From a virus: 25,211 nucleotides of DNA. The position numbers and the translations under genes are program-made. Below are positions 2,396-23,482 of the stretch, piece after piece. Position 1 is the stretch's first letter. The number at the start of each line of letters is the position of its first letter. The notes beneath the pieces were generated by a model, which was not told where the DNA came from, did not search any database, and saw only the letters and a list, made by a program, of their open reading frames with translations. The DNA lies in IMG/VR virus record IMGVR_UViG_3300048839_000271, positions 1-25,211 of that record, one strand, 5' to 3'.

Positions 2396-2414
2396 GTCGT
2401 CCGTCGTCGTCGCG

Positions 2415-2450
2415 CGTTTCCTTGTGCGCCAGCCGGCGCAACAGACTGCC
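2415..2450 (+). promoter_or_regulatory. Bipartite boundary element, copy 1
   Basis: CGTTTCCTTGTGC at 2415-2427, 15 variable bases, then AGACTGCC at 2443-2450. Two further copies with the same blocks and the same 15-base gap occur at 7125 and 23447. This copy lies 19 bases after the terL stop and 5 bases before the next ATG, which has no Shine-Dalgarno sequence. The spacer region also forms a TGCGCC-AGCC-GGCGCA hairpin (2425-2440), but copy 2 has no equivalent, so the hairpin is probably not the conserved feature. The function is unknown; a promoter, an activator site or a module-exchange boundary are candidates. Confidence 0.7.
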
Positions 2451-2455
2451 GCCCC

Positions 2456-2716
2456 ATGTGCTCGGTCGGCAGCGCCAGCGACACCAGCCTGGCAGGTGGC
2501 GCCCCTCAATCGTCGGCCGCCGGTGGCCAGTCCATCGGCGGCGGCGGTAGCTCTGGCTCGACGGGTGGCGGCGGCGCCACCATGTTCGGCCGGCGCGGGA
2601 CGATCCTGACGGGCGGCGCTGGCGTGGGTGCGGCAGCGCCCACCGCGGCCGCATCGAGTGCGATCACCACCGGCGGAGGCCGTCGTCCTGGCGGCCCGCC
2701 CATGATGGAGCACTGA
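2456..2716 (+). CDS. Small Gly/Ser/Ala-rich protein with MCS start, paralog A
   Basis: An 86-residue low-complexity protein starting Met-Cys-Ser, with glycine runs (IGGGGSSGSTGGGG) and a segment RGTILTGGAGVG at about residues 47-58. The next gene encodes a shorter protein with the same MCS start and a similar GTLLTGTGGV segment, so the two look like paralogs. Small proteins of this kind are seen near portal genes in podoviruses and may be virion parts, but I cannot assign a role. The Cys at position 2 is not preceded by a signal peptide, so this is not a classic lipoprotein. No Shine-Dalgarno sequence precedes ATG 2456, which sits 5 bases after the repeated bipartite element. Confidence 0.65.
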   Translation: MCSVGSASDTSLAGGAPQSSAAGGQSIGGGGSSGSTGGGGATMFGRRGTILTGGAGVGAAAPTAAASSAITTGGGRRPGGPPMMEH

Positions 2717-2719
2717 CCC

Positions 2720-2908
2720 GTGTGCAGTTCCTCGCCCAACATCCAGCCGCCACCCCCGCCGGCCCAGGAGCAGAAGCAGCCCGACACCGCCGCGGTGAAG
2801 AAGAAGCGCCCGGCGGCCGCATCCGGCGGCGGCACGCTGCTGACCGGCACCGGCGGCGTGCAGCAGGGCTCGCTGAACACCGGCAGCACGACCCTGCTCG
2901 GCGGCTGA
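2720..2908 (+). CDS. Small Pro/Gly-rich protein with MCS start, paralog B
   Basis: A 62-residue protein starting MCSSSPN, then a proline run (QPPPPPAQ), a basic patch KKKRP and a C-terminal half with GTLLTGTGGV and a terminal STTLLGG. The GT.LTG..GV segment matches the upstream gene, which suggests a tandem duplication followed by divergence. I chose GTG 2720 because it has a GGAG motif 9 bases upstream (2707-2710) and gives the MCS start shared with its neighbour. An overlapping frame from GTG 2722 gives an arginine-rich product typical of a GC-rich shadow and was rejected. The position directly before the portal gene suggests a small virion or connector-associated protein; the function is unknown. 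Confidence 0.65.
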   Translation: MCSSSPNIQPPPPPAQEQKQPDTAAVKKKRPAAASGGGTLLTGTGGVQQGSLNTGSTTLLGG

Positions 2909-2921
2909 GCCGCGCCCGGCC

Positions 2922-4637
2922 GTGACCCCTGACGCCCGCACGCCGATCCAGCGCGCGCTGCACCGCAAGCAGCAGCTGTTCAACGAGCGCAGCTCGTGGA
3001 TGGAGCACTGGCGCGAGATCAGCAGGCTGCAGGCACCGCGCGCCGGGCGCTACGTGACGACCGACCGCAACAAGGGCGGCAAGAAGCACAACGACATCAT
3101 CGACAACACGGCGATCTTCGCAGCGCGCACGCTGCAGGCCGGGATGATGAGCGGCATGACCAGCCCGGCGCGGCCGTGGTTCCGCCTGGGCCTGGCCGAC
3201 AAGGACATGATGGAGGCGCCGGCGGTCAAGCACTGGCTGCACGAGACGGCCCAGCTGCTGCGCAACATCTTCGCGGCCAGCAACCTCTACAACGTGCTGC
3301 ACACCATGTACGGGGAGCTCGGCCTGTTCGGCACCGCTGCGACGGTGATGCTGCCGGACTACCAGAGCGTGATCCGCATGCAGGCGATGACGGTGGGCGA
3401 GTACATGATCGCCACCGACCACCGCGGCCGTGTCAACACGCTGTGCCGCGAGTTCCAGATGACCGCGGCGCAGATGGTCGAGCAGTTCGGCTACGACCGC
3501 TGCAGCCAAGCCGTGCGCAGCGCCTGGGACGCGCGCAACTTCGATTCGTGGTTCGACGTGGTGCACCTGATCGAGCCACGGGCCACGCGCAACCCGAAGA
3601 TGCTGGACGCCCGCAACATGGCATGGTCGTCGTGCTACTTCGAGCCGTCGCAGTCGGGCGGCGACTTCCTGCTGGAGACCGGATTCAAGCGCTTTCCGGC
3701 GCTGGTGCCGCGCTGGGACATCACAGGCAACGACATCTATGGCCAGAGCCCAGGCATGGAGTGCCTGGGCGACGTGAAGCAGCTGCAGCACCAGCAGCTG
3801 CGCAAGGGCCAGGGCATCGACTACCAAGTCAACCCGCCGCTGGTCGTGCCCAGCAGTTACGCCGAGAAGAAGTCGAGCCGGCTGCCGGGCGGGATCATGT
3901 ATGCCGACGGCGTGGGCGCCGATCGCACGATCCGCACGGCATTCGAGGTGCAGCTGAACCTGCAGCACCTGACGATGGACATCGAGGATGTGCGCGGCCG
4001 CATCCGGGCGGCCTACTACGCCGACCTGTTCCTGATGCTGGCCAACGACACGCGCAGCGGCATCACCGCCACCGAGGTGGCCGAGCGGCACGAGGAGAAG
4101 CTGCTCATGCTGGGCCCGGTGCTCGAGCGGCTGCACAACGAGCTGCTGAGCCCGCTGATCGACAACGCCTTCGACACCGCGGCCGAGGCCGGGATCATCC
4201 CGCCGGCGCCTCCCGAGATGGAGGGCATGGACATCGAGGTCGAGTACATCAGCACGCTGGCGCAGGCGCAGCGCATGGTGCAGGCGCAGAGCGCCGACCG
4301 GCTGGTCACGGCCGTGGGCAACATCGCCGCGGCTAAGGCCGATCCCGCGGTCTGGGACAAGGTCGACACCGACCAAGTGATCGACGACTACGCCGACATG
4401 CTGGGCGTGCCGCCGCGCTGGATCGTGAGCGACGACCAGGTGGCCGAGGTGCGCAGCGCGCGTGCGCAGGCGGCGGCCGCGCAGCAGGCGCAGATCGCGG
4501 CGGAGAGCATGACCAAGTCCGCGGCCAACGCCGCGCGCGTGCCCACGCAGGGCGGCGAGTCGACCATGGCCACGGACATCCTGAACATGTTCCAGGGCTA
4601 CAACAGCCCGTCAGCCATCGAGGTGGGCACCCTATGA
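2922..4637 (+). CDS. Portal protein (podovirus head-tail connector)
   Basis: A 571-residue protein matching the podovirus 'bacteriophage head to tail connecting protein' family (T7 gp8-like). It should form the ring at one capsid vertex through which DNA is packaged and ejected. The N-terminus carries the family's typical stretch: RSSWMEHWREISRLQAPRAGRY, then DNTAIFAARTLQAGMMSGMTSPARPWFRL at about residues 45-75. The C-terminal part is helical and ends in an Ala/Gln-rich segment (about 505-530), as expected for the crown/barrel region. GTG 2922 is the first start that includes the full N-terminus; no clear Shine-Dalgarno precedes it. The stop overlaps the next gene by ATGA. Length is normal and I see no damage. 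Confidence 0.93.
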   Translation: MTPDARTPIQRALHRKQQLFNERSSWMEHWREISRLQAPRAGRYVTTDRNKGGKKHNDIIDNTAIFAARTLQAGMMSGMTSPARPWFRLGLADKDMMEAPAVKHWLHETAQLLRNIFAASNLYNVLHTMYGELGLFGTAATVMLPDYQSVIRMQAMTVGEYMIATDHRGRVNTLCREFQMTAAQMVEQFGYDRCSQAVRSAWDARNFDSWFDVVHLIEPRATRNPKMLDARNMAWSSCYFEPSQSGGDFLLETGFKRFPALVPRWDITGNDIYGQSPGMECLGDVKQLQHQQLRKGQGIDYQVNPPLVVPSSYAEKKSSRLPGGIMYADGVGADRTIRTAFEVQLNLQHLTMDIEDVRGRIRAAYYADLFLMLANDTRSGITATEVAERHEEKLLMLGPVLERLHNELLSPLIDNAFDTAAEAGIIPPAPPEMEGMDIEVEYISTLAQAQRMVQAQSADRLVTAVGNIAAAKADPAVWDKVDTDQVIDDYADMLGVPPRWIVSDDQVAEVRSARAQAAAAQQAQIAAESMTKSAANAARVPTQGGESTMATDILNMFQGYNSPSAIEVGTL

Positions 4638-4867
4638 GCGTCGCAGCCGATCCCGCCTCGGGCGTGCAGACCGTGGCCCTGGACACGAACCTGACCCCGG
4701 TCAGCCGCGGCCTCTACGTGGGAGTGACCGGAGACATCGCCGTCATCGCGTCCGATGGCAGCACCGCCACCTTCACCAACGTGCCGGGCGGCACCGTGCT
4801 GCCCGTGCGCGTGCGTCGCGTCAACTCGTCGGGCACCACGGCCACCGGCCTGGTCGCCCTCTACTGA
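4634..4867 (+). CDS. Small protein resembling the GTA head-spike base protein
   Basis: A 77-residue beta-rich protein. The pattern SRGLYVGVTGDIAVIASDGSTATFTNVPGGTVLPVRVRRV...GTTATGLVALY fits the 'spike base protein, RCAP_Rcc01079 family', named after the base of the head spikes of the Rhodobacter capsulatus gene transfer agent. Homologs are scattered through tailed phages near head genes. By analogy it may sit on the capsid and anchor a fiber (inference). It starts by ATGA overlap with the portal stop, so it is coupled to portal translation. The LamG-repeat protein 1.2 kb downstream is a possible partner that could be displayed on such a base; nothing in the sequence proves this. Confidence 0.7.
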   Translation: MSVAADPASGVQTVALDTNLTPVSRGLYVGVTGDIAVIASDGSTATFTNVPGGTVLPVRVRRVNSSGTTATGLVALY

Positions 4868-4882
4868 CAGGAGAGCCACGGC

Positions 4883-5167
4883 ATGAGCAACTGGCTGAAC
4901 AAGATCCTCGGACGCGGCGAAGGCGCTGCTGATGCTGCGCCGGTGGCGCCATCGTCCTATGCGCCCACCGAGCCGGCCGTCGCGCCGATCGCCGACATCG
5001 ACCTGAGCCTGGATGTGCTGGTGGCCGAGAACCTGCGCCTCGGCGCGGAGATCGACCGCCTGCGCGAGCGGCGCAAGGCCCTGAAGCCGCTGATCGACCA
5101 GAAGGTGCGCGAGCGCGAGCAGGCCGCGCCACTGGGCCCCGGCAGCGCCGTCATCAAGGGGGAGTGA
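4883..5167 (+). CDS. Small coiled-coil protein of unknown function
   Basis: A 94-residue protein preceded by a good AGGAG Shine-Dalgarno (4869-4873), 9 bases before ATG 4883. It begins MSNWLNKILGRG, an amphipathic helix. A Pro/Ala linker follows, then a charged helix at about residues 45-82 (DVLVAENLRLGAEIDRLRERRKALKPLIDQKVREREQ) with a leucine heptad pattern that looks like a short coiled coil. The function is unknown. Its place between the portal and other small head-module genes suggests a minor virion or assembly protein. Its own stop lies 3 bases before the next start, inside that gene's Shine-Dalgarno region. Confidence 0.75.
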   Translation: MSNWLNKILGRGEGAADAAPVAPSSYAPTEPAVAPIADIDLSLDVLVAENLRLGAEIDRLRERRKALKPLIDQKVREREQAAPLGPGSAVIKGE

Positions 5168-5170
5168 CCC

Positions 5171-5593
5171 ATGGCTTCCGGCATCTACCACTCGTTCTTC
5201 GAGGACGTCTTCAAGGGCAACATCGACGTCGACACCGACACCTTCTACGGCATGGTGGTCGGTGCGTCCTACAGTTTCAACAAGGACAGCCACAACCGGC
5301 GCGACGACATCACCGACGAGGTGAGCGGCACCGGCTACACCGCCGGCGGCCAGGCCGTCACGCTGACGGTCAACTCCATCGACACGGCCAACGACCGCGT
5401 CGAGATCACGATCGCCAGCACCAGCTGGACAAGCTCGACGATCAGCGGCGCGCAGCAGCTCATCGTCTACAAGCGCCGCGGCGGCGCGTCCAGCGCCGAC
5501 GAGCTCGTGTGCTGCGTCGACAACGGCAGCACCGTCAGCACCACCAGCGGCACGCTGCAGGCCACCGCCAGCACGATTCGCGTGCAGAACTGA
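5171..5593 (+). CDS. Conserved small phage structural-type protein, function unknown
   Basis: A 140-residue beta-rich protein. The start ASGIYHSFFEDVFKGNIDVDTDTFYGMVV followed by a DEVSGTGYTAGGQAVTLTV segment is the arrangement of a widespread family of small phage proteins (N-terminal 'I/VY..F...L..G.IDL.TDT.K', then 'EV.GTGYTAGG'). These are usually annotated as hypothetical virion or head proteins; no biochemical role is known to me. The C-terminal half is Ser/Thr-rich (VSTTSGTLQATASTIRV). A strong AAGGGGGAG Shine-Dalgarno lies 6 bases before ATG 5171. It is placed between the coiled-coil protein and a low-GC gene within the head module. Confidence 0.78.
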   Translation: MASGIYHSFFEDVFKGNIDVDTDTFYGMVVGASYSFNKDSHNRRDDITDEVSGTGYTAGGQAVTLTVNSIDTANDRVEITIASTSWTSSTISGAQQLIVYKRRGGASSADELVCCVDNGSTVSTTSGTLQATASTIRVQN

Positions 5594-5604
5594 GGAGTAT
5601 CGAC

Positions 5605-6006
5605 ATGAAGCGCTGGGCCTTCACCAATCTGGTCCTGACCGAGGATCAAGAGCGCGTGCCGCTGGTGGCGCCGTACACCAACCCGGCCGATCCGACCGCA
5701 CCGAAGATGAATGTCTACAGCAACGACACCGAAGATCGGTGCGTATGCTTGTGCGCGTTCCCGAACCTCGCAGATGTCAGCGAAGACCCGAATGTCTTCG
5801 TCTTCCCTGACGTTCCGCTTGGCGTGCAGTGGTCGACCATTCCGCAGGTTGACCGAACCGCCATCGCAGCAAAGATCCGAGCCTTCGGGTTCGCCTTCCA
5901 GCCGCACGGAACCATGTCCATCAAGCAGGTGATCGAGCTGGCCGTGCACGAAGTGCAGCCCGTGGTCAACGTCGAAACCCAGGACATCTACGACCCCTAC
6001 GGCTGA
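5605..6006 (+). CDS. Unidentified protein, base composition unlike neighbours
   Basis: A 133-residue protein with start ATG 5605, 7 bases after a GAGGAG Shine-Dalgarno (5592-5597). I do not recognise the family. Its layout resembles small phage proteins with a short N-terminal strand (RWAFTNLVLTEDQERVPLVAPY), a middle segment about residue values (NVFVFPDVPLGVQW) and a C-terminal helix (DRTAIAAKIRAFGFAF). It ends in VNVETQDIYDPYG and has three Cys close together (RCVCLC at about 47-52), unusual for this window. Counted by eye, 5701-5820 is about 55% GC, while nearby coding DNA is often near 70% or above. This suggests recent acquisition from a different background, or different selection. The longer upstream extension of this frame overlaps the 5171 gene and lacks support. 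Confidence 0.75.
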   Translation: MKRWAFTNLVLTEDQERVPLVAPYTNPADPTAPKMNVYSNDTEDRCVCLCAFPNLADVSEDPNVFVFPDVPLGVQWSTIPQVDRTAIAAKIRAFGFAFQPHGTMSIKQVIELAVHEVQPVVNVETQDIYDPYG

Positions 6007-6015
6007 GGCTGACGG

Positions 6016-7110
6016 GTGGCGACTTTCTGGCGCGGGTTCGACGACCCGGACGGAATCAGCGACTGGACCGAGGTTCCACTAACGTCCGGCCACACCTATC
6101 CCGCGTGGTCGGTCGTCTCTACGAACCAGCTGCAGGCCACCAGCGCCAGCAGCCACAACACAGCCTTCGTCTGGGACGACATCGACGCGGATGGTGACCG
6201 CGACGACTTCGAGGTTTTGTGCCAGGTCTACGTCGATTCCACGTCGACGACTGCGCGCTACCTGGGCGGCCGGATTTCAACGTCAGGCAGCTCGCGCACA
6301 GGCTATGCCGTGCGCGTTCGGTCGAACTCGATCGACACGTACAGATTCAACGGGTCGACCTATACCGCCATCACCAATGGCGTATTCAGCGTCACCTCGG
6401 GGACCTGGTGCTGGGTGCGCTTTCGGGTCAACGGCTCGACGGTGCAGGCTCGCGTGTGGGCCGATGGAGATAGCGAGCCAGGCACCTGGCAGTGCAGCGC
6501 TACCGACACGACCTACGCGACGGCAGGTCACGTCGGGGCCATCAAGGGCGCCAACACCAGCACTCAGCTCTGGCGACGGTTCGGCGTTGGCACCAACGGC
6601 GACACGGCGCCGTCCAGCTCCGGCGGCACCGACGGCACGATCACCGGCGCCACGCTCACCGCCACGGCATCGCTGATCCCGGGCGCGCTTTCCGGCACCA
6701 GCAGCGCCACGATCGCCGGCACCACGATGACGGCCGCGGCCTCGCTGGTGCCTGGTGCGCTGCAGGCCGGCTCGACCATCGCCGGCCAGACGCTGAGCGC
6801 GACCGCGTCGCTGATCCCTGGCACGCTGATTGGCGAGGGCGGCGCCACGCTGGCCGGGCAGACCTTGAGCGCCACGGCTTCGCTCATCCCTGGCGAGCTG
6901 CAGTCCACCGGCAACGCCCAGGTGCTGGCCGGCACCACGCTGTCGGTGGCGTCCAGCATCATCGTCGGCGAGCTGCGCGCCGGCTCGACGCTGCCAGGCC
7001 AGACGCTGACGGCCTCGGCCTCTCTTATCCCCGGCGTCCTGTTCGACTCGTCGCTGACCTCTGGCCTGCGGCACTCCAAGCTGCACATGCGCATCGGCAT
7101 CGGTATTTGA
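6016..7110 (+). CDS. LamG/concanavalin-like protein with C-terminal short tandem repeats
   Basis: A 364-residue protein. Residues about 1-190 look like a LamG/concanavalin A-type beta sandwich, a fold often used for sugar binding: the order is WRGFDD.D...W, then FVWDDID..DFEVLCQVYVDS, GYAVRVRSNSIDTYRF, TWCWVRFRVNGSTVQARVW.DG and WRRFGVGTNGD. A Ser/Gly linker follows. Residues 209-342 then hold six copies of a 22-25 residue repeat of the form T(I/L)AGQTLSATASLIPG.L. A likely role is a surface or fiber-type virion protein that binds carbohydrate (inference from fold only). GTG 6016 has TGAGG 7 bases upstream and gives the full N-terminal strand. The second bipartite element lies 14 bases after the stop. 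Confidence 0.72.
   Translation: MATFWRGFDDPDGISDWTEVPLTSGHTYPAWSVVSTNQLQATSASSHNTAFVWDDIDADGDRDDFEVLCQVYVDSTSTTARYLGGRISTSGSSRTGYAVRVRSNSIDTYRFNGSTYTAITNGVFSVTSGTWCWVRFRVNGSTVQARVWADGDSEPGTWQCSATDTTYATAGHVGAIKGANTSTQLWRRFGVGTNGDTAPSSSGGTDGTITGATLTATASLIPGALSGTSSATIAGTTMTAAASLVPGALQAGSTIAGQTLSATASLIPGTLIGEGGATLAGQTLSATASLIPGELQSTGNAQVLAGTTLSVASSIIVGELRAGSTLPGQTLTASASLIPGVLFDSSLTSGLRHSKLHMRIGIGI
6640..7041 (+). repeat. Six in-frame repeats encoding TLAGQTLSATASLIPG-type units
   Basis: Six units start at codons 209, 233, 255, 279, 304 and 326 of the LamG-like gene (nucleotides 6640, 6712, 6778, 6850, 6925 and 6991), spaced 22-25 residues apart. Units 3 and 4 are almost identical in protein (AGQTLSATASLIPG); unit 5 is the most divergent (AGTTLSVASSIIVG). 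Alternating small hydrophobic and Thr/Ser residues suggest a beta-solenoid or shaft-like segment. The lack of exact DNA identity means these are old duplications rather than a fresh expansion. Confidence 0.85.
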
Positions 7111-7124
7111 GCCTGCGCGGCCGG

Positions 7125-7160
7125 CGTTTCCTTGTGCGCAGGGGCGGCTTCCAGAATGCC
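7125..7160 (+). promoter_or_regulatory. Bipartite boundary element, copy 2
   Basis: CGTTTCCTTGTGC at 7125-7137, 15 variable bases, then AGAATGCC at 7153-7160. It starts 14 bases after the stop of the LamG-repeat gene and ends 11 bases before the ATG of the Bbp19-like gene, which has no Shine-Dalgarno sequence. It marks the entry to the capsid module. Unlike copies 1 and 3 it forms no convincing hairpin, which points to a DNA-level site or a primary-sequence RNA signal. Confidence 0.7.
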
Positions 7161-7171
7161 CGCGACCTGCC

Positions 7172-7459
7172 ATGGATGACGCCGATCTTCTGGACCCAAG
7201 CCAGCCGCAGCCCGACAAGGCTGCGCAGCGCGCCCAGCAGACCGAAGACATGAAGTGGCTGGCCGGTCACCCTCAGGGTCGGCGCATCGCGTGGCGACTG
7301 CTGGAGCGGGCCGGCGTCTTTCGGAGCACGTTCAACACCAACGCGATGACGATGGCGGCGAACGAGGGCACGAGGTCGCTGGGCCTGTTCCTGCTGGACG
7401 AGCTGCTTGACGCATCGCCGGGGGTGTTGACGCGGATGATGCAGGAGCACCGTGGATGA
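7172..7459 (+). CDS. Bbp19-family phage protein
   Basis: A 95-residue helical protein. The core EDMKWLAGHPQGRRIAWRLLERAGVFRSTFNTNAMTMAANEGTRSLGLFLLDELLDASPGVLTRMMQE fits the Bbp19 family of Bordetella phage BPP-1, whose members lie just before the scaffold and capsid genes. The conserved features are the GRR..WRLLE..G.FR.SF centre and the EG.RS.GL.LL segment. No activity is known; a minor head or assembly role is likely from position. ATG 7172 is the first start of the capsid module, lies 11 bases after the bipartite element and has no recognisable Shine-Dalgarno. The stop overlaps the scaffold gene start (ATGA). Confidence 0.85.
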   Translation: MDDADLLDPSQPQPDKAAQRAQQTEDMKWLAGHPQGRRIAWRLLERAGVFRSTFNTNAMTMAANEGTRSLGLFLLDELLDASPGVLTRMMQEHRG

Positions 7460-8118
7460 CGACCACGACCACGCAGGACGCCGGCGCAAGCACCCAGTCA
7501 GCCGGGGGAGAGCAAGGCACGACCACTGCACCCGCAAACGCGGGCGCAGCCGATACCACGAGCGCGGCGGCCGCCGACTCGACCACCTCCACCACGACCG
7601 AGTCCAATGGCACCCCGGGTGACGCCGGCGCTGCCGCCGGCGAGGCGAAGAAGGAAGGCGGCGAGACCGAGGCCATCGAGTACGAGGTCACGGCACCCGA
7701 AGGGATCGAACTGGACGCCGCCTCGGTGGATCAGTTCAAGGCCCTGGCCAAGGAACTGAACCTGCCCAAGGACAAGGCCGAGCAGCTGGCCGCCATCGCT
7801 GTGCAGCGAGAGGTGGCGCGCCGCCAGGCCTTCGAGCAGCAGATCCAGGACTGGCGCGACCAGTCGCAGGCCGACCCGGAACTCGGCAAGGACGAGAACC
7901 TGGCGGCCGCACGCAAGGCCATCGACACCTTCGGCACGCCCGAGCTGAAGGCCATGCTGGACACGAGCGGGCTGGGCAACCATCCCGAAGTCATCCGGCT
8001 GGCTATGAAGGTCGGAAAGCTCATCTCCGAGGACTCGTTCGTCCAGGCCAACCGGCCCGGCGCAGGCGCGCCGAAGTCGCTGGAGGAACGCATGTACCCC
8101 ACCAACGCCACCCACTGA
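7456..8118 (+). CDS. Probable capsid scaffolding protein (Bbp18-like position)
   Basis: A 220-residue acidic protein. Residues 1-65 are a disordered Thr/Ala/Gly/Ser stretch. A short strand-like EAIEYEVTAPEGIELDAASVDQFKALAKELNLPKDKAEQLAAIAVQ follows, then long charged helices (130-190), and the end is SLEERMYPTNATH. A 'YP'-type C-terminus after basic and acidic helices is typical of scaffolds that bind the inside of the procapsid. It lies directly before the major capsid gene, the normal scaffold position in podoviruses, and is translated by ATGA overlap with an AGGAG motif at 7443-7447. No protease catalytic motif is visible, so I call it a scaffold rather than a head maturation protease. Confidence 0.85.
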   Translation: MTTTTTQDAGASTQSAGGEQGTTTAPANAGAADTTSAAAADSTTSTTTESNGTPGDAGAAAGEAKKEGGETEAIEYEVTAPEGIELDAASVDQFKALAKELNLPKDKAEQLAAIAVQREVARRQAFEQQIQDWRDQSQADPELGKDENLAAARKAIDTFGTPELKAMLDTSGLGNHPEVIRLAMKVGKLISEDSFVQANRPGAGAPKSLEERMYPTNATH

Positions 8119-8132
8119 ACTGAGGTCCCATC

Positions 8133-9176
8133 ATGGCCACGATGCCCAACAAGTCCGGCGCCGTCACCCTTCTGGACGTCGCCAAGTCCCTCGACCCCGA
8201 TGGCAAGGTCGCGGCGGTTGCCGAGCTTCTGTCGCAGACCAACGAGATCCTGCTCGACATGCCCTTCTACGAGGGCAACCTGCCGACCGGCCACCGCGGC
8301 GGCATCCGCACCGGCCTGCCGACGGCGGTCTGGCGCAAGCTGTACCAAGGCGTGCCGCCCAGCAAGTCGCTGCGCGCGACGGTCGAGGACTCCTGCGGCA
8401 TGCTGGAGACCCGCTCGGAGGTCGACAAGGATGTGGCCGAGCTCAACGGCAACACCGCGGCATTCCGCCTGAGCGAGGCGCAGGCCTTCGTCGAAGGCAT
8501 GAACCAGTCGTTCGCCGAGGCGCTGATCTACGGCGACGCGTCGCTCAACCCCGAGCAGTTCAACGGCCTGGACGTGCGCTACAAGGCGCTGACCGGCACC
8601 ATCGGCCAGAACGTGATCTCGGCCGGCGGCGCCAGCTCCGACAACACCAGCGTCTGGCTGGTGGTCTGGGGCAAGAACACGGTGCACGGCATCTACCCGA
8701 AGGGCAGCAAGGCCGGCCTGAGCCACGACGACCTGGGCCTGATCGACGCCTTCGACTCCAACAACAACCGGTATCGCGCATACGCCGACCACTGGCAGTG
8801 GAAGGGCGGCGTGCACGTCAAGGACTGGCGCTACGTCGTGCGAATCTGCAACGTCGACGTGTCCGACATGACCGGCCTGACCGGCACGCAGGCCACCAGC
8901 ACGGCCACCTTCCTGCCCAAGCTGATGATCAAGGCGATGGCGCGCATCCCGTTCATGGGCATGGGCACGCCGGTCTTCTACGCCAACCGCTCGGTCAAGG
9001 AGATGCTGGGCATCATGGCCATGGACCGCAACCAGAACGTGCTGTCCATCCAGGCCGCGGCGCAGGAGTTCGGCACGATCGCCCCGGGCTCGGTCAACAA
9101 CGGCACGCTGCGCATCCTCGGCGTGCCGATCCGCACGGTCGACCGCATCGACGAGACCGAGGCCACGATCTCCTGA
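8133..9176 (+). CDS. Major capsid protein (BPP-1 Bbp17-like, HK97 fold)
   Basis: A 347-residue protein that builds the icosahedral shell. It is recognised from its position between scaffold and cement genes and from the family's typical segments: LLDVAKSLDPDGKVAAVAELLSQTNEILLDMPFYEGNLPTGHRG near the start, the E-loop-like GLPTAVWRKLYQGVPPSKS, EALIYGD..LNPEQFNGLD (about 130-145), and HWQWKGGVHVKDWRYVVRICNVD in the second half. BPP-1's capsid protein has an HK97-like fold with changed chain topology; whether this one shares that topology is inference. TGAGGT (8121-8126) provides the Shine-Dalgarno. There is no sign of an N-terminal cleavage domain or truncation. Confidence 0.92.
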   Translation: MATMPNKSGAVTLLDVAKSLDPDGKVAAVAELLSQTNEILLDMPFYEGNLPTGHRGGIRTGLPTAVWRKLYQGVPPSKSLRATVEDSCGMLETRSEVDKDVAELNGNTAAFRLSEAQAFVEGMNQSFAEALIYGDASLNPEQFNGLDVRYKALTGTIGQNVISAGGASSDNTSVWLVVWGKNTVHGIYPKGSKAGLSHDDLGLIDAFDSNNNRYRAYADHWQWKGGVHVKDWRYVVRICNVDVSDMTGLTGTQATSTATFLPKLMIKAMARIPFMGMGTPVFYANRSVKEMLGIMAMDRNQNVLSIQAAAQEFGTIAPGSVNNGTLRILGVPIRTVDRIDETEATIS

Positions 9177-9205
9177 TCGCCACCTGACCAAACGAGGACA
9201 TCAAC

Positions 9206-9688: not shown

Positions 9689-9691
9689 GCC

Positions 9692-9967: not shown

Positions 9968-9997
9968 TCTCCGGGACGCACACGCAGTTGCCACCCC

Positions 9998-10027
9998 AAG
10001 GGCCGCCATCGTGCGGCCCTCTTTTCT
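9998..10027 (+). terminator. Intrinsic terminator closing the capsid unit
   Basis: AGGGCCGC (9999-10006), a six-base loop CATCGT, then the perfect complement GCGGCCCT (10013-10020), followed by CTTTTCT (10021-10027). An 8 bp GC stem plus a T-rich tail is a textbook factor-independent terminator. It lies 31 bases after the last capsid-block gene and directly before the GAGGAG ribosome binding site (10028-10033) of the next gene. T7 has a comparable partial terminator (T-phi) just after its capsid gene, which raises capsid mRNA relative to tail mRNA; the same role here is inference. Confidence 0.88.
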
Positions 10028-10039
10028 GAGGAGCAGCAC

Positions 10040-10252: not shown

Positions 10253-10253
10253 C

Positions 10254-15108: not shown

Positions 15109-15110
15109 CC

Positions 15111-16751
15111 ATGCCGCGTGTGCCAACCTACGGCGGCCCGCAGGTCCAGGAGCGCGCGCTGCAGCCGGTGCTGCAGGGTCCGGTCGATGTCAGCAGCGGC
15201 ACGCGCGCGCTTGGCCAGACCGTGGCGCACCTGGGCGACATCGCCGACCGGCGCCAGCGGCAGGAGGCCGAGGCCGAGGCCAACCGGATCGACACCGAGA
15301 TCACAGCCGGGTGGCTGGAGTGGGACTCGGCCAACCGGCCCAAGTACCGCGGCCAGAACGTCAAGGGCTACGAGGCCGAGGCCGCGAAGTGGTGGGACGA
15401 CGCGCGCACCAAGTACGGCGCCAGTGCCAGTCCCCTGGCGCGCCAGGCCGTCGGCACCGCGCTGGGCCGCAAGCGCAACCAGGCGCTGGCCTCGGTGGGC
15501 GGCTACGTCAGCGCCGAGACCGAGCGCCACGCCGACGAGCAGGCCGAGGCTGCCGCGCAGACCACGATCGAGTTCGGCATCGACACCAACGACACCGCCG
15601 GCGCAGGGCAGCGGGTGCGCGAGATCGCGGCGCTCAAGGGCGCCCGCAAAGGCTGGACCACCGAGCAGGTGCAGGCCGAGCAGCAGCGGCTGCTGGGCAC
15701 CATGCACCTGGCCTACATCACCCGGCTGGCCGAAGCTGACCCGGTGAAGGCGCAGGCCTACTTCGACGCCAACCGAGGCGAGATCCCGGCCGTGGCGCAG
15801 GGCCGGGCCGAGGCCATGCTCAAGGGCGAGGTCGACAACCAGGCCGCGCAGCAGTTCGCCGCCGGCGTGGCCGGCAAGCCGCTGGCCGAACAACTGGCCG
15901 CGGCCGCCGACATTTCGGACCCGCAGCGGCGCGAGAAGACGCTCCAGCAGATCCGCAACAACCACGCCATGGTCGAGCAGGCGCGGCGCGAACGCGAGGG
16001 CGCGGCGGCCGACCAGGCGTGGCAGCTGGTGGGGCAGGGAAAGAAGGTGCCCGAGCTGGTGCTGCTGCAGATGGACGGCAAGAGCCGCGTGCAGCTGCAG
16101 GACTACCTGCGCGACCGCGCGAAGCAGGCCGCCACCGGCGCCAGCGTGAAGACCGACTGGCCGACCTACATCGACCTGCGCGAGCGGCTGGCCGCCGGCG
16201 AGAAGGTCGACCTGCGCCCCTACGCCACCAAGCTGGCGGGCCCGCAGCTCGAGCAGCTGCTGGACATCCAGACCAAGGCGGCCGACGCCAAGAGCCCGAA
16301 GCAGGACAGCATGCTGACCGACGAGCAGCGCATCGGCGCGGCGCTGGTGGGGCTGGGCATCGACAAGGGCAAGAGCCCGGAGGAGGCCGGGCGCTTCACG
16401 GCCGAGGTGGACCGCCGGGTGCGCGCAGAGTCGGCGGCGCGCGGCGGCAAGGACCTGACCGCGGACGAGAAGCAGAAGGTGATCGACTCGGTGACGATGG
16501 ACAAGGTCTACGTCGACGAGTGGGGCCGCGACCCCGAGAAGCCGCTGTCGCTGCTGACGCCTGACCAGCTGGGCAAGGCCTACGTGAAGTCGGGCGGCCG
16601 CAACGTGCCGCTGGCCTCGGTGCCGGCCACTGACCGCCAGCAGATCATCCAGGCCCTGCGGGCCGTCGGCCGGCAGCCGACCGAGCAGGCCATCGTCGAC
16701 CTGTACCTGCGCGGCAAGAACGCGCGCGCTTCATCCGGCACCGTGCGATGA
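15111..16751 (+). CDS. Internal virion protein, T7 gp15-like
   Basis: A 546-residue, almost entirely helical protein rich in Ala, Gln, Glu and Arg. The N-terminus PRVPTYGGPQVQERALQPV followed by LGQTVAHLGDIADRRQRQEAEAEANRIDTEITAGWLEWD and 'RGQNVKGYEAEAAKWWDDARTKYG' is typical of podovirus internal or ejection proteins of the gp15 class. These line the channel that crosses the periplasm together with the gp16-type protein. I see no transglycosylase or peptidase motif. A GGGGGG tract lies just before the start. The stop overlaps the giant polyvalent gene by ATGA, which suggests matched synthesis of the two partners. Confidence 0.82.
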   Translation: MPRVPTYGGPQVQERALQPVLQGPVDVSSGTRALGQTVAHLGDIADRRQRQEAEAEANRIDTEITAGWLEWDSANRPKYRGQNVKGYEAEAAKWWDDARTKYGASASPLARQAVGTALGRKRNQALASVGGYVSAETERHADEQAEAAAQTTIEFGIDTNDTAGAGQRVREIAALKGARKGWTTEQVQAEQQRLLGTMHLAYITRLAEADPVKAQAYFDANRGEIPAVAQGRAEAMLKGEVDNQAAQQFAAGVAGKPLAEQLAAAADISDPQRREKTLQQIRNNHAMVEQARREREGAAADQAWQLVGQGKKVPELVLLQMDGKSRVQLQDYLRDRAKQAATGASVKTDWPTYIDLRERLAAGEKVDLRPYATKLAGPQLEQLLDIQTKAADAKSPKQDSMLTDEQRIGAALVGLGIDKGKSPEEAGRFTAEVDRRVRAESAARGGKDLTADEKQKVIDSVTMDKVYVDEWGRDPEKPLSLLTPDQLGKAYVKSGGRNVPLASVPATDRQQIIQALRAVGRQPTEQAIVDLYLRGKNARASSGTVR

Positions 16752-19700
16752 CCGACTACCTTGCGCTGGCCCGCGGCCAGCAGCCGCAGGACGCGGCGCC
16801 GGACGACGCCGGCAACCCCTACGCCGCGCTGGTGCGCGAGGATCAGCAGGCCCAGCAGCAGCTGGCGCGCACCGTGGTCGAGCACGCGCTGACCGGGTCG
16901 CCCGAGGCCGCCGCCGAGCGCCAGCGCCTGGCCAACACCAGCGGCCTGCCGCTGCGCGTGGTTGAGCGCAACCTCGAGGAGGTGCGGCGCAAGGAGCAGC
17001 TGCGCGCGCTGGACCTGATGCGCATGGCCCAGGATTCGCCGGTGCTGGCGCGGCAGCTGGTCGACCCGGCCTTCACGACCGTGGCTGTCGACGACCTGGG
17101 CACTCTGGCCAGCCTGGAGACCGCCGTCGGCAAAGCGGTGCGCTACGTGATGGGCGCGGCGCCTGGCGGCGGCATGGTGGGCGACCTGCGGGCGTCGCTG
17201 TACCGCGGCGCGGCAGGCTTCGCTGGCGCCAAGATGGCCGCGGTCGACGTCGTGGAGCCGTGGGCGCGCCTGGTGGCCGGCGACGACAACTGGTTCGCCG
17301 GCATGTCGCGCTACTACGGCGAGCAGGCCCAGGCTGCCACCGGCATGGCCGAGCGCCTGAGCCCGCCTGGCGGAGGCGTGCTGTCGTCGGGCGTGTCGTC
17401 CGGCGTGCAGTCGCTGGGGCAGAACCTGAAATACCTGCCGCTGGCCTTCACCGGCCCCGGCGGCGCGGCGGCCGCGCTGGGCGGCATGGTGATGGAGAGC
17501 TTCGGCGCCAGCTACGGCAAGGCGGCCGACAAAAACCTGCCGCTGTGGCAGAGCCTGGGCTACGCCAGCGCCGACGCCATGGTCGAATACTGGACCGAGA
17601 AGATCCCCATGGATGCGCTGATCGGCGGCATCCGGCAGGGCGCGCCGTTCATCAAGGCCCTGGGCAAGCAGCTGGCGCTCGAGATCCCGGGCGAGCAGCT
17701 GGCCACCGTGCTGCAGGATCTGAACGAGTGGGCCACGCTCAACCCCGGCCGGCCGTTCGTGGACTACCTGGCCGACCGGCCGGACGCCGCGGCGCAGACG
17801 CTGATCGCCACCGTGATCGGCACCGGCGGCAACGTCATGGTGGCGCACGGCGCGGCGCGCGTGATCGACGCCACGCTCGGCAGCAACGCCTGGCGGCAGA
17901 ACATCACCGCCGGCTTCCAGTCCATGCTGGACGAGCAGATGGCCCTGGCCGGCCAGTCGCTGCTGCGCGAGCGCAGCCCCGAGCAGTTCCGGGCCATGGT
18001 GCAGCGCGTGGTCGACGCCAACGAAGGCGCGCCCAAGGTCGTCTACGTCGACGGCGAGGTGCTCAACCAGATGCCGGCCGAGGTGCTCGAGGCGCTGCCG
18101 GCCGAGGTGCGAGAGCAGATCCCGGCCGCGGCCGCCGCCGGCGCCGCGGTGGCCATCCCGATGGCCGACGTGCTGACGACTGCCCCCGGCACGCCGCTTG
18201 AGGCGGCGCTGGCCGAGCACGCGCGCATGGACCCGTTCGCGCTGTCGCCGGCCGAGGTCAAGGCCGCCGGTGACCAGGCGGCCGCGCTGAAGCTGCAGGC
18301 CGAGCGCGTGGTGCAGCAGGCATCCGACCAGGAGGCTTGGCGGCAGTCGGCCGAGGCGGTGCGCAGCGGCATCGAGGCGCAGATCGCCGCCACCGGCCGC
18401 TACCGGCCCGCGGTGGCCGAGGGCATGAGCCACTGGGCCGGCGCCTTCTACAGCACCATGGCCGCGCGCACCGGCATGACGCCGGAGCAGTTCGCCGCAC
18501 AGTACCCGCTGCGCATCCTGGCCGAGGCCAGCCAGCCGGCCCCTGCCGGGCAGGAACTGGACCAGCCATTCCGCCGCACCCCGGAGTTCGATGCGTGGTT
18601 CGGCGCCAGCAAGGTGGTCGACGAGGCCGGCGCGCCGCGCGTGATGTACCACGGCACCGGGGCGGACTTCGACACCTTCCGCGGCCAGCAGGCTGGCGCC
18701 ATCTTCCTGACGCCGGAGCCGATCTTCGCGCAGGCCTACGGCGACACCGGCGCGAAGTGGCTGCAGGCCCGGGGCCAGGACGGCGCGGCCAGGATCATGC
18801 CGGTCTTCGTCAAGGCCGAGAACCCGTTCGACTACGAGAACCCGGCGCACCGGCAGCAGGTGATCGAGGCGGCGCTGGCCGCCAGTGGCACCGAGAACGG
18901 CGCCGGCGAGCGCGTGATCAGCAACCCGGACGGCACGCCCAGCCTCTACTCGGCCGGCGTGCTGGATGCCGGGCTGGCCGACCCGGGCGAGGGCGGGAAC
19001 TGGCTGCTGATCGAACAGCCTTGGTTCCAGGAAGCTGTCCGCGCCGCCGGCTTCGACTCCTTCTACGTCAACGAGGGCGGGTTCAAGAACCTGGCCGTCT
19101 ACGACCCCGCGCAGGTCAAGTCGGCGATCGGGAACCGGGGCGCGTTCGACCCGAGCAGCGCGAGCATCCTGGAGCAGCCAGCCCGCGGCACCTTCAACCC
19201 CCGCACCCTCGAGCTCGTCCTGTCGCCGACGGCGGACCTGAGCACGTTCTTCCACGAGACCGGGCACTTCTACCTCGAGGTGCTGGCCGACGTCGCCAGC
19301 CAGGCCAATGCCCCGCAGCAGGTGGCAGACGACATGGCCGCGGTGCTGAAGTGGTTCGGCGTCGAGAGCCTGGGCGCATGGCAGGCCATGACGCTGGAGC
19401 AGCAGCGCCAGTATCACGAGCGCTGGGCCGAGAGCATCGAGCAGTACCTGATGGAGGGCAAGGCGCCGAGCGCCGAGCTGGCGCCGCTGATGCGCCGGTT
19501 CCGCGCGTGGCTGGTGGCGGCCTATCGGTCGCTGAAGGCCTTCCTGGCGGGCCGGCCCGATGCCGCGGCCATGCCGCTGAACGACGACATCCGCCGCGTG
19601 ATGGACCGGCTGCTGGCCACCGACGAGCAGATCGCACAGGCCGAGGAAGTGGCCGGCATGCTGCCCGACGAGGAGGCCACGGCCGCCGCGCTGGAGCGCC

Positions 19701-22700
19701 AGCAGGCCCGCAGCATGCGCGACCTGAAATGGACGGTGCGCGCGCGCGACAAGGTGATCGTCGGCATCCAGAAGCAGGCCGAGGCTGAGCGTCGCCGCGT
19801 GCGCATGCAGGTCCGATCCGAGGTGATGAGCCAGCCCGTCTATCGGGTGTGGCAGTTCCTCACCGGCAAGGGCGACCAGGTGGACACTGCGCCGCCGATG
19901 GTGAAGCAGGGCGCGACGCGCGAGCTCGACGTCACGAAGGACAGCCTGCTGGTGGCCGTCGCCAAGCTGGGTGGCATTGCCCGTGAATCGGCCATGCGCG
20001 ACCTGGGCGTGGCCGAGGATCAGTTCAAGGTCGAGTCGGGCGTCTTCGGCGCCACGGTCTTCCGCAAGGATGGCGGCCGCAACGCCGACGACATGCGCGA
20101 GCTGCTGACCGAGCACGGCTACCTGCGGCAGTTCGACGAGTTCGGGCGCACCGAACTGCGCGAGCTGGAGGACCTGATCGCCGAGGAGATCGGCGGCGCG
20201 CCGCAGTACAGCATGAGCTTCGACTACAGCAACTTCCTGGGCGATGGCCCGCGGGAAACGCTGCCGGTCTATGCCGCCTTCGGCAAGCTCGACACCGACG
20301 TGCTGCGCGGCTGGTTCGGCACGGCCGACGATGCGCTGTGGCGCCGGCTGTCAGAGCGCCGCATGACCAGCGACAAGGCCGGCGTGCACCCCGACGTGGT
20401 GGCCGATGCCTTCGAGTTCACCGATGGGCGCGTCATGGCCGAGGCCCTGGCCGCAGCCCGGCCTCCGCGCGAGGTGATCGAGGAGCTGACGGAGCAGCGC
20501 ATGCTTGAGGAGCATGGCGAGCTGGTCGACGAGCGCGCCATTCAGGAGGCCGCGAACGAGGCAGTGCACAACGAGGCCCGGGCCCGCGCGCTGGCCACCG
20601 AACTGCGCGCCCAGGCCGACCTGCTGGGCCAGCGTGAGGACACCGGCCAGACCAACGCCGGCGGCGCGCGCATCACGGTCAACGCCATGGCCGAGGCGGC
20701 GCGGCAGTTCGGCGCCGGCATCGCTGCGCGCACGGTGCTGAAGGATCTGCGCGACCGGATCTGGCAGCACACCGCGGCCGAGCGCAGGGCTGCCGGGCGG
20801 TGGCAGACGGCCACGGCCGCCGGCCAGACGCAGGAGGCGGTGAAGGCCAAGCAGGACCAGGTGCTGAACAACGCCGCGGCGCGCGCGCTGGTCGAGGCCA
20901 AGGACGAGGCGGCCCGGATCCTCGAGTTCTTCCGCCGCGTCACCAAGGGCGGCAACGAGAAGACCGTCGAGCGCGGCCGCGACGCGGACATCGTCAACGC
21001 GGCGCGCGCGGTGCTGGCGGCCTACGGAGTCGACACCGGCACCACCCGGGCGGCTGGCGACTACCTCGCCAAGCTGAAGACCAACGACCCGGAGACCTGG
21101 AACGTGGTGGCCCCGATGGTGGACGACGCCACCCAGGCCGCGCAGCCGCTGCAGGCGCTGACGATCGAGCAGCTGCAGGGCCTGCACGAGCAGGTGCAGG
21201 CGATGTGGCACCTGGCACGCCGCAGCCGGCAGCTGGAGGTCGACGGCAACCTGATGGACATCGAGGACGCGGCTGCCGAGCTGTCCGCGCGCATGGCCGA
21301 GATCGGCGTGCCGGCCGAGGCGCCGGGCGAGCGCAGCGCGGTGACGCGCGAGCAGGAGCGCGTGCGCTGGCTGCAGTTCGCCGGGTCGCTGCTGCGCCGC
21401 ACCGAGCAGTGGGCCGAGGCCATGGACGGCAAGTATGGCGGCCCGTTCCTGCGCTATGTCTTCCAGCCGGTGAAGGACGCGGCCGACCGCTACCGCGCCG
21501 ACCGCATCGCCTTCCGCCGGAAGTTCCAGGGCCTGGTCGACGCCGTGGCGCCGCACATGCAGCAGCGGCTGATCGAGGCGCCGGAACTGGGCTACACCTT
21601 CGGCCGCGGCCACAACGGCATCGGCATGGCCGAGCTGCTGCACGCCATCCTGCACACCGGCAACGAGAGCAACAAGCGCAAGCTGCTGCTGGGCAGGAAG
21701 TGGGCGACGGCCGCCGACCCGACGCAGGCTGACGGCGAGATCGACACCAGGCGCTGGGACGAGTTCATCGACCGGCTGATCCGCGAGGGCGTGCTGCGTC
21801 GCGAGCACTTCGACTTCGCGCAGGGGGTGTGGGATCTGCTCGAGGAGACCAAGCCGCTGGCCCAGGCCGCGCACCGCGACGTCTTCGGCACCTACTTCGA
21901 TGAGATCACGGCCAGCCCGGTGACCAACGCGCTGGGCACCTGGCGCGGCGGCTACGTGCCGGCGCAGGCCGACCCGCTGATCGTCGACGACGCCAGCCTG
22001 CGCGCGCTGGCCGAGGCCGAGAACGAGAGCATGGCCTACTCGTTCCCGGCGACGAATCGCGGGTTCACCAAGGGCCGCGTCGAATACAACCGGCCGCTGA
22101 AGCTGGACCTGCGCACGATCCCGCAGCACCTGGACAAGGTGCTGCTGTTCAGCCACATGGAGGCGCCGGTGCGCGGCGTGACGCGGCTGCTGCGCAAGTC
22201 CGACGTGTCCAAGCCACTCGGCCGCATCGACCCTTCGATCTACAGCGGCATGCTGCTGCCATGGCTGAACCGCAGCGCGCGCCAGCAGGTCGAAACGCCG
22301 GTTGTCGGCGACGGCCGCATCACGCGCGTCCTGTCAACCATGCGCTCGCGCGCCGGCGCCGCGCTGATGTTCGCCAACGTCAGCAACACGATCCAGCAGA
22401 TCACCGGCCTGTCGTCGGCCATGGTGAAGGTGAAGCCGGCCCTGCTGATGCAGGCTGCCGGGCAGTACCTGACCAGCCCGCGCAAGGTTTCACGTGAAGT
22501 CGCGGCAGCGTCAGAGTACATGGCCGACCGCATGAAGAACGAAGTTTCGGCGATGAACGACGAGGTGGACAGGATCCTGCTGGATCCGTCGCTGTACGAG
22601 CGCGCCCAGGCCTGGAGCATGCAGCACGCCTACTTCATGCAGACCGCGGTTGACAACGTGCTGAGCCCCATCGTGTGGACCGGGGCCTACAACCAGGCGC

Positions 22701-23440
22701 TGCAGCAGGGCATGAGCGAACGCGACGCCGTGCGTTTCGCCGACGGCACGGTGCGCCAGACCCAGGGCAGCACGCTGCCCGAGGACGTGAGCCGCATCGA
22801 GACCGGGCGGCCTGAAGCGCGCGTCTTCACGCAGTTCATCGGCTACTTCAACATGATGGCCAACACCAACGCGACGGCGCTGCAGCAGATCGCGCGTGAG
22901 ACCGGCCTGCGCAAGGGTGCCGGCAAGGCCATGCTGCTGCTGACCGTGGGCATGCTGATCCCGCTGTGGGTGGCCGAGGCCATCGCGATCGCCTTCCGCG
23001 GCGGGCCCGAGGACGAAGACAAGGACGGCGAGTATCTCGACGACTGGCTGGCCGCGGTGCTGGGCATGGGCACGATCAAGGGCATCCTGGCCAGCGTGCC
23101 GTTCATTGGGCAACTGGCCAATGCCGGCATCAACCGCACGAACAACAACCCGGCCGACGACCGGGTGTCGATGAGTCCGGCTATCAGCCTGTGGGAGGCT
23201 GGTGTTGGCGCGCCATCGTCGGTCTACAAGGCCATCGTCGACGACGGCAACAAGCAGAAGGCGGTGCGCGACGTGGCGAGCCTGCTGAGCATGCTCACCG
23301 GCCTGCCGTTCACCGCCGCGGCCAGGCCCATCGGCTATGCCGCCGGCGTGGCCGACGACCGCATCGAGCCGACCAGCGCGGCCGACGCGGTGCGCGGCGC
23401 CGTCACGGGCGTGGCCAGCCAGGACAGCCGAGCCCCGTAG
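16748..23440 (+). CDS. Giant polyvalent ejection protein with ART-like and HExxH metallopeptidase-like domains
   Basis: A 2230-residue protein in the T7 gp16 position, expected to be packaged and injected with DNA. N-terminal region: hydrophobic and Gly/Ala-rich helices (about 140-380). Residues about 611-800 look like an ART-PolyVal ADP-ribosyltransferase-like domain (EFDAWFGASKVVDEAG.PRVMYHGTG with H635, IFLTPEPIFAQAYG, FVKAENPFDYENP, then GFDSFYVNEGGFKNLAVYDPAQVKSA). At 835-840 FHETGH gives a zincin HExxH (H836, E837, H840), with E895 a candidate third ligand in AESIEQYL. The middle is long helical linker. Residues about 1860-2060 match a large polyvalent-protein-associated C-terminal domain. 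Hydrophobic segments follow at 2062-2080 and about 2101-2127. The exact substrates are unknown. Iyer and colleagues described the polyvalent protein class. Confidence 0.88.
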   Translation: MTDYLALARGQQPQDAAPDDAGNPYAALVREDQQAQQQLARTVVEHALTGSPEAAAERQRLANTSGLPLRVVERNLEEVRRKEQLRALDLMRMAQDSPVLARQLVDPAFTTVAVDDLGTLASLETAVGKAVRYVMGAAPGGGMVGDLRASLYRGAAGFAGAKMAAVDVVEPWARLVAGDDNWFAGMSRYYGEQAQAATGMAERLSPPGGGVLSSGVSSGVQSLGQNLKYLPLAFTGPGGAAAALGGMVMESFGASYGKAADKNLPLWQSLGYASADAMVEYWTEKIPMDALIGGIRQGAPFIKALGKQLALEIPGEQLATVLQDLNEWATLNPGRPFVDYLADRPDAAAQTLIATVIGTGGNVMVAHGAARVIDATLGSNAWRQNITAGFQSMLDEQMALAGQSLLRERSPEQFRAMVQRVVDANEGAPKVVYVDGEVLNQMPAEVLEALPAEVREQIPAAAAAGAAVAIPMADVLTTAPGTPLEAALAEHARMDPFALSPAEVKAAGDQAAALKLQAERVVQQASDQEAWRQSAEAVRSGIEAQIAATGRYRPAVAEGMSHWAGAFYSTMAARTGMTPEQFAAQYPLRILAEASQPAPAGQELDQPFRRTPEFDAWFGASKVVDEAGAPRVMYHGTGADFDTFRGQQAGAIFLTPEPIFAQAYGDTGAKWLQARGQDGAARIMPVFVKAENPFDYENPAHRQQVIEAALAASGTENGAGERVISNPDGTPSLYSAGVLDAGLADPGEGGNWLLIEQPWFQEAVRAAGFDSFYVNEGGFKNLAVYDPAQVKSAIGNRGAFDPSSASILEQPARGTFNPRTLELVLSPTADLSTFFHETGHFYLEVLADVASQANAPQQVADDMAAVLKWFGVESLGAWQAMTLEQQRQYHERWAESIEQYLMEGKAPSAELAPLMRRFRAWLVAAYRSLKAFLAGRPDAAAMPLNDDIRRVMDRLLATDEQIAQAEEVAGMLPDEEATAAALERQQARSMRDLKWTVRARDKVIVGIQKQAEAERRRVRMQVRSEVMSQPVYRVWQFLTGKGDQVDTAPPMVKQGATRELDVTKDSLLVAVAKLGGIARESAMRDLGVAEDQFKVESGVFGATVFRKDGGRNADDMRELLTEHGYLRQFDEFGRTELRELEDLIAEEIGGAPQYSMSFDYSNFLGDGPRETLPVYAAFGKLDTDVLRGWFGTADDALWRRLSERRMTSDKAGVHPDVVADAFEFTDGRVMAEALAAARPPREVIEELTEQRMLEEHGELVDERAIQEAANEAVHNEARARALATELRAQADLLGQREDTGQTNAGGARITVNAMAEAARQFGAGIAARTVLKDLRDRIWQHTAAERRAAGRWQTATAAGQTQEAVKAKQDQVLNNAAARALVEAKDEAARILEFFRRVTKGGNEKTVERGRDADIVNAARAVLAAYGVDTGTTRAAGDYLAKLKTNDPETWNVVAPMVDDATQAAQPLQALTIEQLQGLHEQVQAMWHLARRSRQLEVDGNLMDIEDAAAELSARMAEIGVPAEAPGERSAVTREQERVRWLQFAGSLLRRTEQWAEAMDGKYGGPFLRYVFQPVKDAADRYRADRIAFRRKFQGLVDAVAPHMQQRLIEAPELGYTFGRGHNGIGMAELLHAILHTGNESNKRKLLLGRKWATAADPTQADGEIDTRRWDEFIDRLIREGVLRREHFDFAQGVWDLLEETKPLAQAAHRDVFGTYFDEITASPVTNALGTWRGGYVPAQADPLIVDDASLRALAEAENESMAYSFPATNRGFTKGRVEYNRPLKLDLRTIPQHLDKVLLFSHMEAPVRGVTRLLRKSDVSKPLGRIDPSIYSGMLLPWLNRSARQQVETPVVGDGRITRVLSTMRSRAGAALMFANVSNTIQQITGLSSAMVKVKPALLMQAAGQYLTSPRKVSREVAAASEYMADRMKNEVSAMNDEVDRILLDPSLYERAQAWSMQHAYFMQTAVDNVLSPIVWTGAYNQALQQGMSERDAVRFADGTVRQTQGSTLPEDVSRIETGRPEARVFTQFIGYFNMMANTNATALQQIARETGLRKGAGKAMLLLTVGMLIPLWVAEAIAIAFRGGPEDEDKDGEYLDDWLAAVLGMGTIKGILASVPFIGQLANAGINRTNNNPADDRVSMSPAISLWEAGVGAPSSVYKAIVDDGNKQKAVRDVASLLSMLTGLPFTAAARPIGYAAGVADDRIEPTSAADAVRGAVTGVASQDSRAP

Positions 23441-23446
23441 CTGCGC

Positions 23447-23482
23447 CGTTTCCTTGTGCTCGGTGGCGCGCCGAAGAATGCC
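23447..23482 (+). promoter_or_regulatory. Bipartite boundary element, copy 3
   Basis: CGTTTCCTTGTGC at 23447-23459, 15 variable bases, then AGAATGCC at 23475-23482. It begins 6 bases after the TAG of the giant gene and ends 29 bases before the tail fiber ATG. The spacer can form TCGGTG-GCG-CGCCGA (23460-23474). With copies 1 and 2 this makes three identical 13-base blocks, all in intergenic gaps at module boundaries. Confidence 0.7.

Follow-up and report, generated by a model that had tools for sequence, protein, structure and literature searches.

The window, by which we mean the whole stretch of DNA analyzed here, is a 25,211-base record that makes up an entire IMG/VR contig and is a genome fragment. 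Based on gene identification, it encodes the late half of a BPP-1-like podovirus: TerS, TerL, the portal/head-tail adaptor, a phrog_528 protein, a protease, the capsid, tail tube proteins, and internal proteins, as well as a giant polyvalent protein with an ADP-ribosyltransferase-like domain and a tail fiber from 23512, the position (residue 183 of the open reading frame) at which the tail fiber domain starts. The portal is 53% identical to that of BPP-1, and a megablast of the window against phages found no close relative. The giant protein (2230 aa; 16748-23440) carries the domains ART-PolyVal (ADP-ribosyltransferase in polyvalent proteins) and LPD22 and is probably ejected together with the DNA.

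The feature under study is a bipartite element. The pattern CGTTTCCTTGTGC-N15-AGA(A/C)TGCC has exactly three matches in the window, all on the + strand (2415-2450, 7125-7160, and 23447-23482), against a chance expectation of 0 in 100 dinucleotide shuffles of the window, and allowing up to three mismatches across the whole record yields no further match. In these respects, an earlier sequence-only reading, which described three copies with a 15-base gap, each starting 6-19 nt after a stop codon, was accurate. Its three exact copies stand but are not the complete set: a matrix made only from sites outside the window finds a fourth copy at 13983-14015, CGTTTCCTTCTCC-N14-TACATTGCCC, which was overlooked because its right half is TACATTGCC. 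In full, this copy reads CGTTTCCTTCTCC-N14-TACATT-GCCCGC-ATG and lies inside the phrog_308 gene. The same matrix ranks 13984 first, 7126 second, 2416 third, and 23448 fifth in the window. The N15 plus AGAMTGCC unit also does not hold up, since the right half conserved in relatives is a hexamer that starts one base earlier, 26 nt from the G of the box. The natural units of the element are a left box (in the window, CGTTTCCTT..) and a −10-like hexamer, [TC]AnnnT, as follows (HTH, helix-turn-helix).

151-411, + strand: candidate reader of the box, a small HTH protein of 86 aa from GTG 151; adjoins and overlaps TerS; HTH_7 above the Pfam cutoff
2415-2427, + strand: putative promoter 1, left (phage-specific) box CGTTTCCTTGTGC; between TerL and a small pre-portal gene, a homologous place in relatives
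2442-2447, + strand: putative promoter 1, −10-like hexamer CAGACT; ATG at 2456, 8 nt further, which would be near-leaderless
7125-7137, + strand: putative promoter 2, left box; precedes the phrog_528/protease/capsid block
7152-7157, + strand: putative promoter 2, −10-like hexamer CAGAAT; ATG at 7172, 14 nt further
13983-13995, + strand: putative promoter 3, left box CGTTTCCTTCTCC; inside the gene for the phrog_308 internal virion protein; top matrix hit
14010-14015, + strand: putative promoter 3, −10-like hexamer TACATT; in-frame ATG at 14022, 6 nt further
23447-23459, + strand: putative promoter 4, left box; precedes the tail fiber gene
23474-23479, + strand: putative promoter 4, −10-like hexamer AAGAAT; tail fiber ATG at 23512, 32 nt further

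The genes 3' of putative promoter 3 encode a short tail fiber, a phrog_418 internal protein, a lytic protein, and the giant protein. The window has no pre-TerS copy, although the contig is a fragment; at 151-848 the HTH gene overlaps TerS with no box between them, the place at which BPP-1 and others have a predicted promoter. The gene at 6016-7110, which precedes the copy at 7125, contains four imperfect repeats of ~69 nt at 6616-7035.

The element across related phages

An IMG/VR scan with the exact window pattern returned only one chance match, in an unrelated AT-rich contig. The sequence-only reading had held that a lack of copies in relatives would count against it; the search of relatives finds the element present, with each phage using its own spelling of the box. 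BPP-1 has its own repeated element, GGTGCCCGTGCC-N15-TAnnnT, at the three corresponding places, ctQRb9 uses GGTACCCGTATC-N15-TAnnnT, and further spellings occupy homologous intergenic places in DC33, zth2-2, ctEw122, SR18, and IMG/VR relatives. In the complete genomes, exact boxes are found on the coding strand where late modules begin, and the remaining BPP-1 box matches are one-mismatch copies within genes, mostly in a bbp36 repeat. (One of these genomes, the Limnohabitans phage DC33 [PQ492659], is placed in the Inoviridae by its taxonomy line, yet its genome is that of a 39-kb BPP-1-like podovirus.)

Two portal-profile scans widened the set by 160 additional loci from viral contigs and prophages. 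In total, the element precedes the same genes in more than 90 relatives (94 positive loci), which form 65 clusters below 90% portal identity. The spacing test relied on words shared between slots and on the offset of any [TC]AnnnT from the first GT. Within one genome, the post-TerL and pre-phrog_528 slots share a word of at least 11 nt in 45 of 136 loci, versus 20 of 680 cross-genome pairs. The distance from the G of the box GT to the first base of the hexamer is 26 nt at 58 of 74 sites, with only 6 sites at the next commonest offset; some of these spacing statistics take in related phages, although clusters below 90% identity are still numerous. A matrix from 31 phages scores at least 14 bits in 142 of 320 slots, whereas shuffles predict 0.33, and its consensus is gsGTRYSCRTRwC-N15-YAnAnT-gc (seeds were chosen for the GT and for the A and T of the hexamer). 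When each phage is searched with its own box plus the hexamer (1.5 Mb), 245 matches fall on the coding strand versus 2 on the opposite strand.

Box plus hexamer recurs at two additional places, 39-54 nt 5' of the tail-tube gene and at the 3' end of TerL. Copies near the TerL 3' end occur in prophages L103, L116, L120, L121, L134, L138, L141, L145, L149, and L153, where the TACGAT overlaps apparently conserved YDP(Y) codons.

What varies, then, is the spelling of the box from phage to phage. Among 16 divergent phages with both sites, boxes match at 9.75 of 10 positions within a phage and at 6.3 of 10 between phages, and the spacer between box and hexamer is unconserved. Spellings differ even within one host genus (Paraburkholderia L145/L149, Cupriavidus L138/L153, and Limnohabitans DC33/L116); thus, the reader of the box is probably phage encoded. 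The copy embedded in phrog_308 behaves in the same manner: across 20 phages with the homologous region, the embedded DNA matches the phage's own box at 7.65 of 10 positions versus 5.03 for the boxes of others (P = 4e-5). Because this DNA tracks each phage's own box despite lying in coding sequence, the embedded copy is very probably a real promoter.

Proposed promoter architecture and start-codon distance

Taken together, comparison among relatives lends strong support to the earlier suggestion of a phage-specific promoter or activator site before each module. We consider it very likely that the repeated element is an activator-dependent late promoter of BPP-1-like phages. Its identity as a promoter is strongly supported by evidence that is comparative throughout, and promoter activity, the −10 assignment, and the transcript starts are what we infer from the sequences. 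The hexamer consensus, T74 A100 x A66 x T100, fits a sigma-70 −10, albeit with seeds preselected for A2 and T6, and the spacing profile provides independent support. At the −35 position, 17 bp 5' of the −10, the element reads YSCRTR rather than TTGACA, and no TTGACA-like −35 is found at 16-18 bp. A sigma-70 scan of window positions 2000-9000 reported neither of the element sites there as a promoter. What we do find, ahead of several genes, is a conserved box that keeps a fixed distance to a −10. The sequence-only reading had judged a 14-base gap too short for sigma-70, but this took the wrong −35; 17 bp from the −10 lies TCCTTG, which belongs to the phage-specific box. Likewise, its idea of one protein contacting two faces of the DNA gives way to a right half better read as a −10 hexamer for RNA polymerase.

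We propose a mechanism in which RNA polymerase with the host main sigma factor would read the right half as a −10 ([TC]AnnnT, often followed by GC), and the phage-specific box ([CG]GTRYSCRTR-like; in the window, CGTTTCCTTGTGC), at about −39 to −28, would replace the normal −35. A phage-encoded activator would bind the box and keep polymerase at the promoter, and the best candidate for this role is the small HTH protein encoded directly 5' of TerS (window 151-411; bbp27 in BPP-1). In this model, one regulator could switch on the late blocks in parallel, namely, packaging/portal, capsid, internal proteins plus lysis, and tail fiber. At several of these blocks, most of all ahead of TerS and the capsid block, transcription would start on the start codon or no more than 1-2 nt from it, giving a leaderless mRNA.

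The geometry behind this last step is as follows. At pre-phrog_528 sites, the start codon lies 6-8 nt past the hexamer in 69 of 84 cases (exactly 6 in 45), and a Shine-Dalgarno-like word is present at 6 of these 84 sites versus 66 of 74 capsid genes of the same phages. Before TerS, the distance is 6-8 nt at 21 of 22 sites. Post-TerL sites have mixed distances, and tail fiber sites have leaders of 27-32 nt; in the window, two of the four sites, those with 14- and 32-nt leaders, are not leaderless. Transcripts usually start 6-7 nt from the −10. Given that the start codon is 6-8 nt away, transcripts would therefore begin at or beside it, and we regard leaderless late mRNA as likely for this class, based on the geometry and the missing Shine-Dalgarno sequence. 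In BPP-1, the annotated TerS (bbp26; 25734-26573) starts 5' of a putative late promoter, whose predicted leaderless ATG lies near 26255; thus, the annotated start is probably wrong.

A candidate reader and the rival explanations

Which protein reads the box? The 78-aa HTH protein bbp27, encoded just 5' of TerS, is the BPP-1 homologue of the product of window 151-411. When the 49 genes of BPP-1 were compared with five other complete genomes that carry boxes, bbp27 alone, virion and packaging genes aside, proved to be conserved in every one of the five. Where enough upstream DNA is available, the reader gene is present in 54 of 57 promoter-positive loci; among 55 loci without an above-threshold promoter, it is absent in 27 and present in 28 (Fisher P = 9e-8 versus promoter-positive loci), and inspection by eye shows repeated boxes of a divergent kind in several of these 28. 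Since most loci with neither promoter nor gene belong to more distant phages, the co-occurrence partly reflects descent. Box and reader distances are weakly correlated once portal distance is taken into account (partial Mantel r = 0.14, P = 0.0005), and a search for a concentration of this covariation in the recognition helix did not find one. Structure prediction gives a three-helix HTH with two flanking strands, and pLDDT exceeds 90 across much of the HTH. Sequence and structure searches return generic HTH matches only (resolvase, paired domain, and SIRV1 ORF55), none of them significant by structure; homing endonucleases and resolvases have an HTH of this type as well. In BPP-1, bbp27 is annotated as an endonuclease, yet it is an HTH-only protein. 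On balance, the pattern of gene sharing leads us to favor binding of the box by the TerS-adjacent HTH protein as the probable reading.

The reader could instead be a host regulator, another early phage protein, or an unshared phage factor acting on the same late promoter, which we see as possible but rather unlikely. The weak covariation of box and HTH protein points in this direction, as do other small HTH genes, such as those beside recT in ctQRb9, DC33, and ctEw122. However, outside the virion and packaging genes, only bbp27-type genes are common to the six complete box-bearing genomes, the comparison of complete genomes shows no BPP-1 homologue of the recT-adjacent gene, and a host reader sits poorly with unlike boxes among phages of a single host genus. 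These second HTH genes lie 3' of recT (L017, 4091-4288; L018, 16444-16641; L022, 14135-14329) and are annotated as PrtN-like or HTH domain, with HTH_17 in L017 and L018. A PrtN/P-box idea was considered and dropped because BPP-1 does not share the recT-adjacent gene of ctQRb9 and DC33.

Other explanations dispense with a promoter altogether. As an RNA signal for processing, antitermination, or translation, the element would be expected to be strand specific and to lie in 5' regions, as it does, and copy 1 is able to form a hairpin across the variable 15 bases. Yet that hairpin is not common to the other copies, the spacer is unconserved, an Rfam search with the element gives no match, the right half bears the A2/T6 signature of a −10 hexamer, and start codons 6 nt past the hexamer leave no space for a leader signal; we consider this account very unlikely. 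Less likely still is a set of repressor operators that silence late modules in the lysogen. The precedent is epsilon15, whose annotated repressor sites (ATTACC-N5-GGTAAT) stand at homologous places before late modules. Those sites are palindromic and also occur in the immunity region, whereas the GT box is not palindromic, has no exact copies in the early/immunity regions of complete genomes, and is tied to a hexamer at a fixed distance on one strand. Least probable of all are recombination linkers for module exchange between phages. The repeats do sit at module boundaries, but one copy is inside a gene, the fixed 26-nt spacing to the hexamer would go unexplained, and box spelling is phage specific, so linker boxes would often be mismatched between phages. 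The sequence-only reading had offered both a module-exchange boundary and a processing/translation signal, and near-fixed spacing, strand bias, start-codon distance, and the copy inside coding sequence speak against each of them.

Relation to known systems and biological meaning

How does the proposed late promoter compare with known phage systems? Like Mor and C of Mu, the candidate reader would be a small phage HTH activator of late promoters, and it shows weak, HTH-only similarity to them (phrog_836/532 and Pfam Mor). Unlike in Mor/C, only the HTH aligns, and a reader of 80-90 aa has no space for the Mor dimerization domain. The box described here also lacks the dyad form of Mor/C sites. 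In the related phage epsilon15, elements also lie at the homologous late-module starts, but they are operators without a GT box; three of them, at 12-27, 2931-2947, and 19895-19911, stand in place of the GT-box promoter.

Known promoters that keep a −10 but have a replaced −35 need an activator. In T4 middle promoters, an example of sigma appropriation, the −10 is kept, the −35 is replaced by a MotA box, and activity depends on the activator (PMC2988021); the MotA box is (a/t)3TGCTTtA, 12 ± 1 bp from the −10 (PMC2988021). The likeness to MotA/AsiA lies in a host sigma-70 −10, a box in place of the −35 at a fixed distance, many dispersed promoters, and one small DNA-binding activator (here, a candidate). 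In contrast, the present box, GTRYSCRTR at about −39 to −28, is not a MotA box, and the element serves late genes, with starts that would often be leaderless. In library scans, the candidate reader, a small single-HTH protein, had no match to MotA.

As in Gram-positive phage regulators of the Ltr/RinA type, the candidate reader gene lies just 5' of the packaging genes. According to the part of the phi13 report consulted (PMC13123087), the ltr regulator gene is directly 5' of the packaging block, and its product activates a promoter there that has a −10 (TATA box). That part describes a single promoter with four upstream repeats, whereas here we find several dispersed single-box promoters; the Ltr phages have different hosts, and leaderless starts are not mentioned there for phi13. 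Library scans with the reader name no Ltr family among its matches. Compared with the MotA and Ltr systems, box, geometry, candidate protein, and start-codon placement all differ. Thus, the mode of action would resemble that of T4 MotA or staphylococcal Ltr promoters, and the form is apparently undescribed: a search of open-access papers did not find a description of this promoter class. We posit, at about even chances, a widespread and undescribed class of late promoters in which a stand-alone protein with a single HTH of the resolvase/homing endonuclease type replaces sigma-70 −35 recognition, box and reader drift together, and terminase and capsid mRNAs are leaderless.

Such a class would explain, in concrete and testable terms, how late genes are controlled in BPP-1, the model phage for diversity-generating retroelements, with a probable regulator named and transcript starts predicted nearly to the base. 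Its scope would extend to many related phages and to prophages of Burkholderiales and other Proteobacteria. The account predicts leaderless translation of the major structural operons, an arrangement that would be unusual for highly expressed genes of Proteobacteria. Finally, varied box spellings within a fixed geometry may offer a natural series in which to study the coevolution of an activator and its site.
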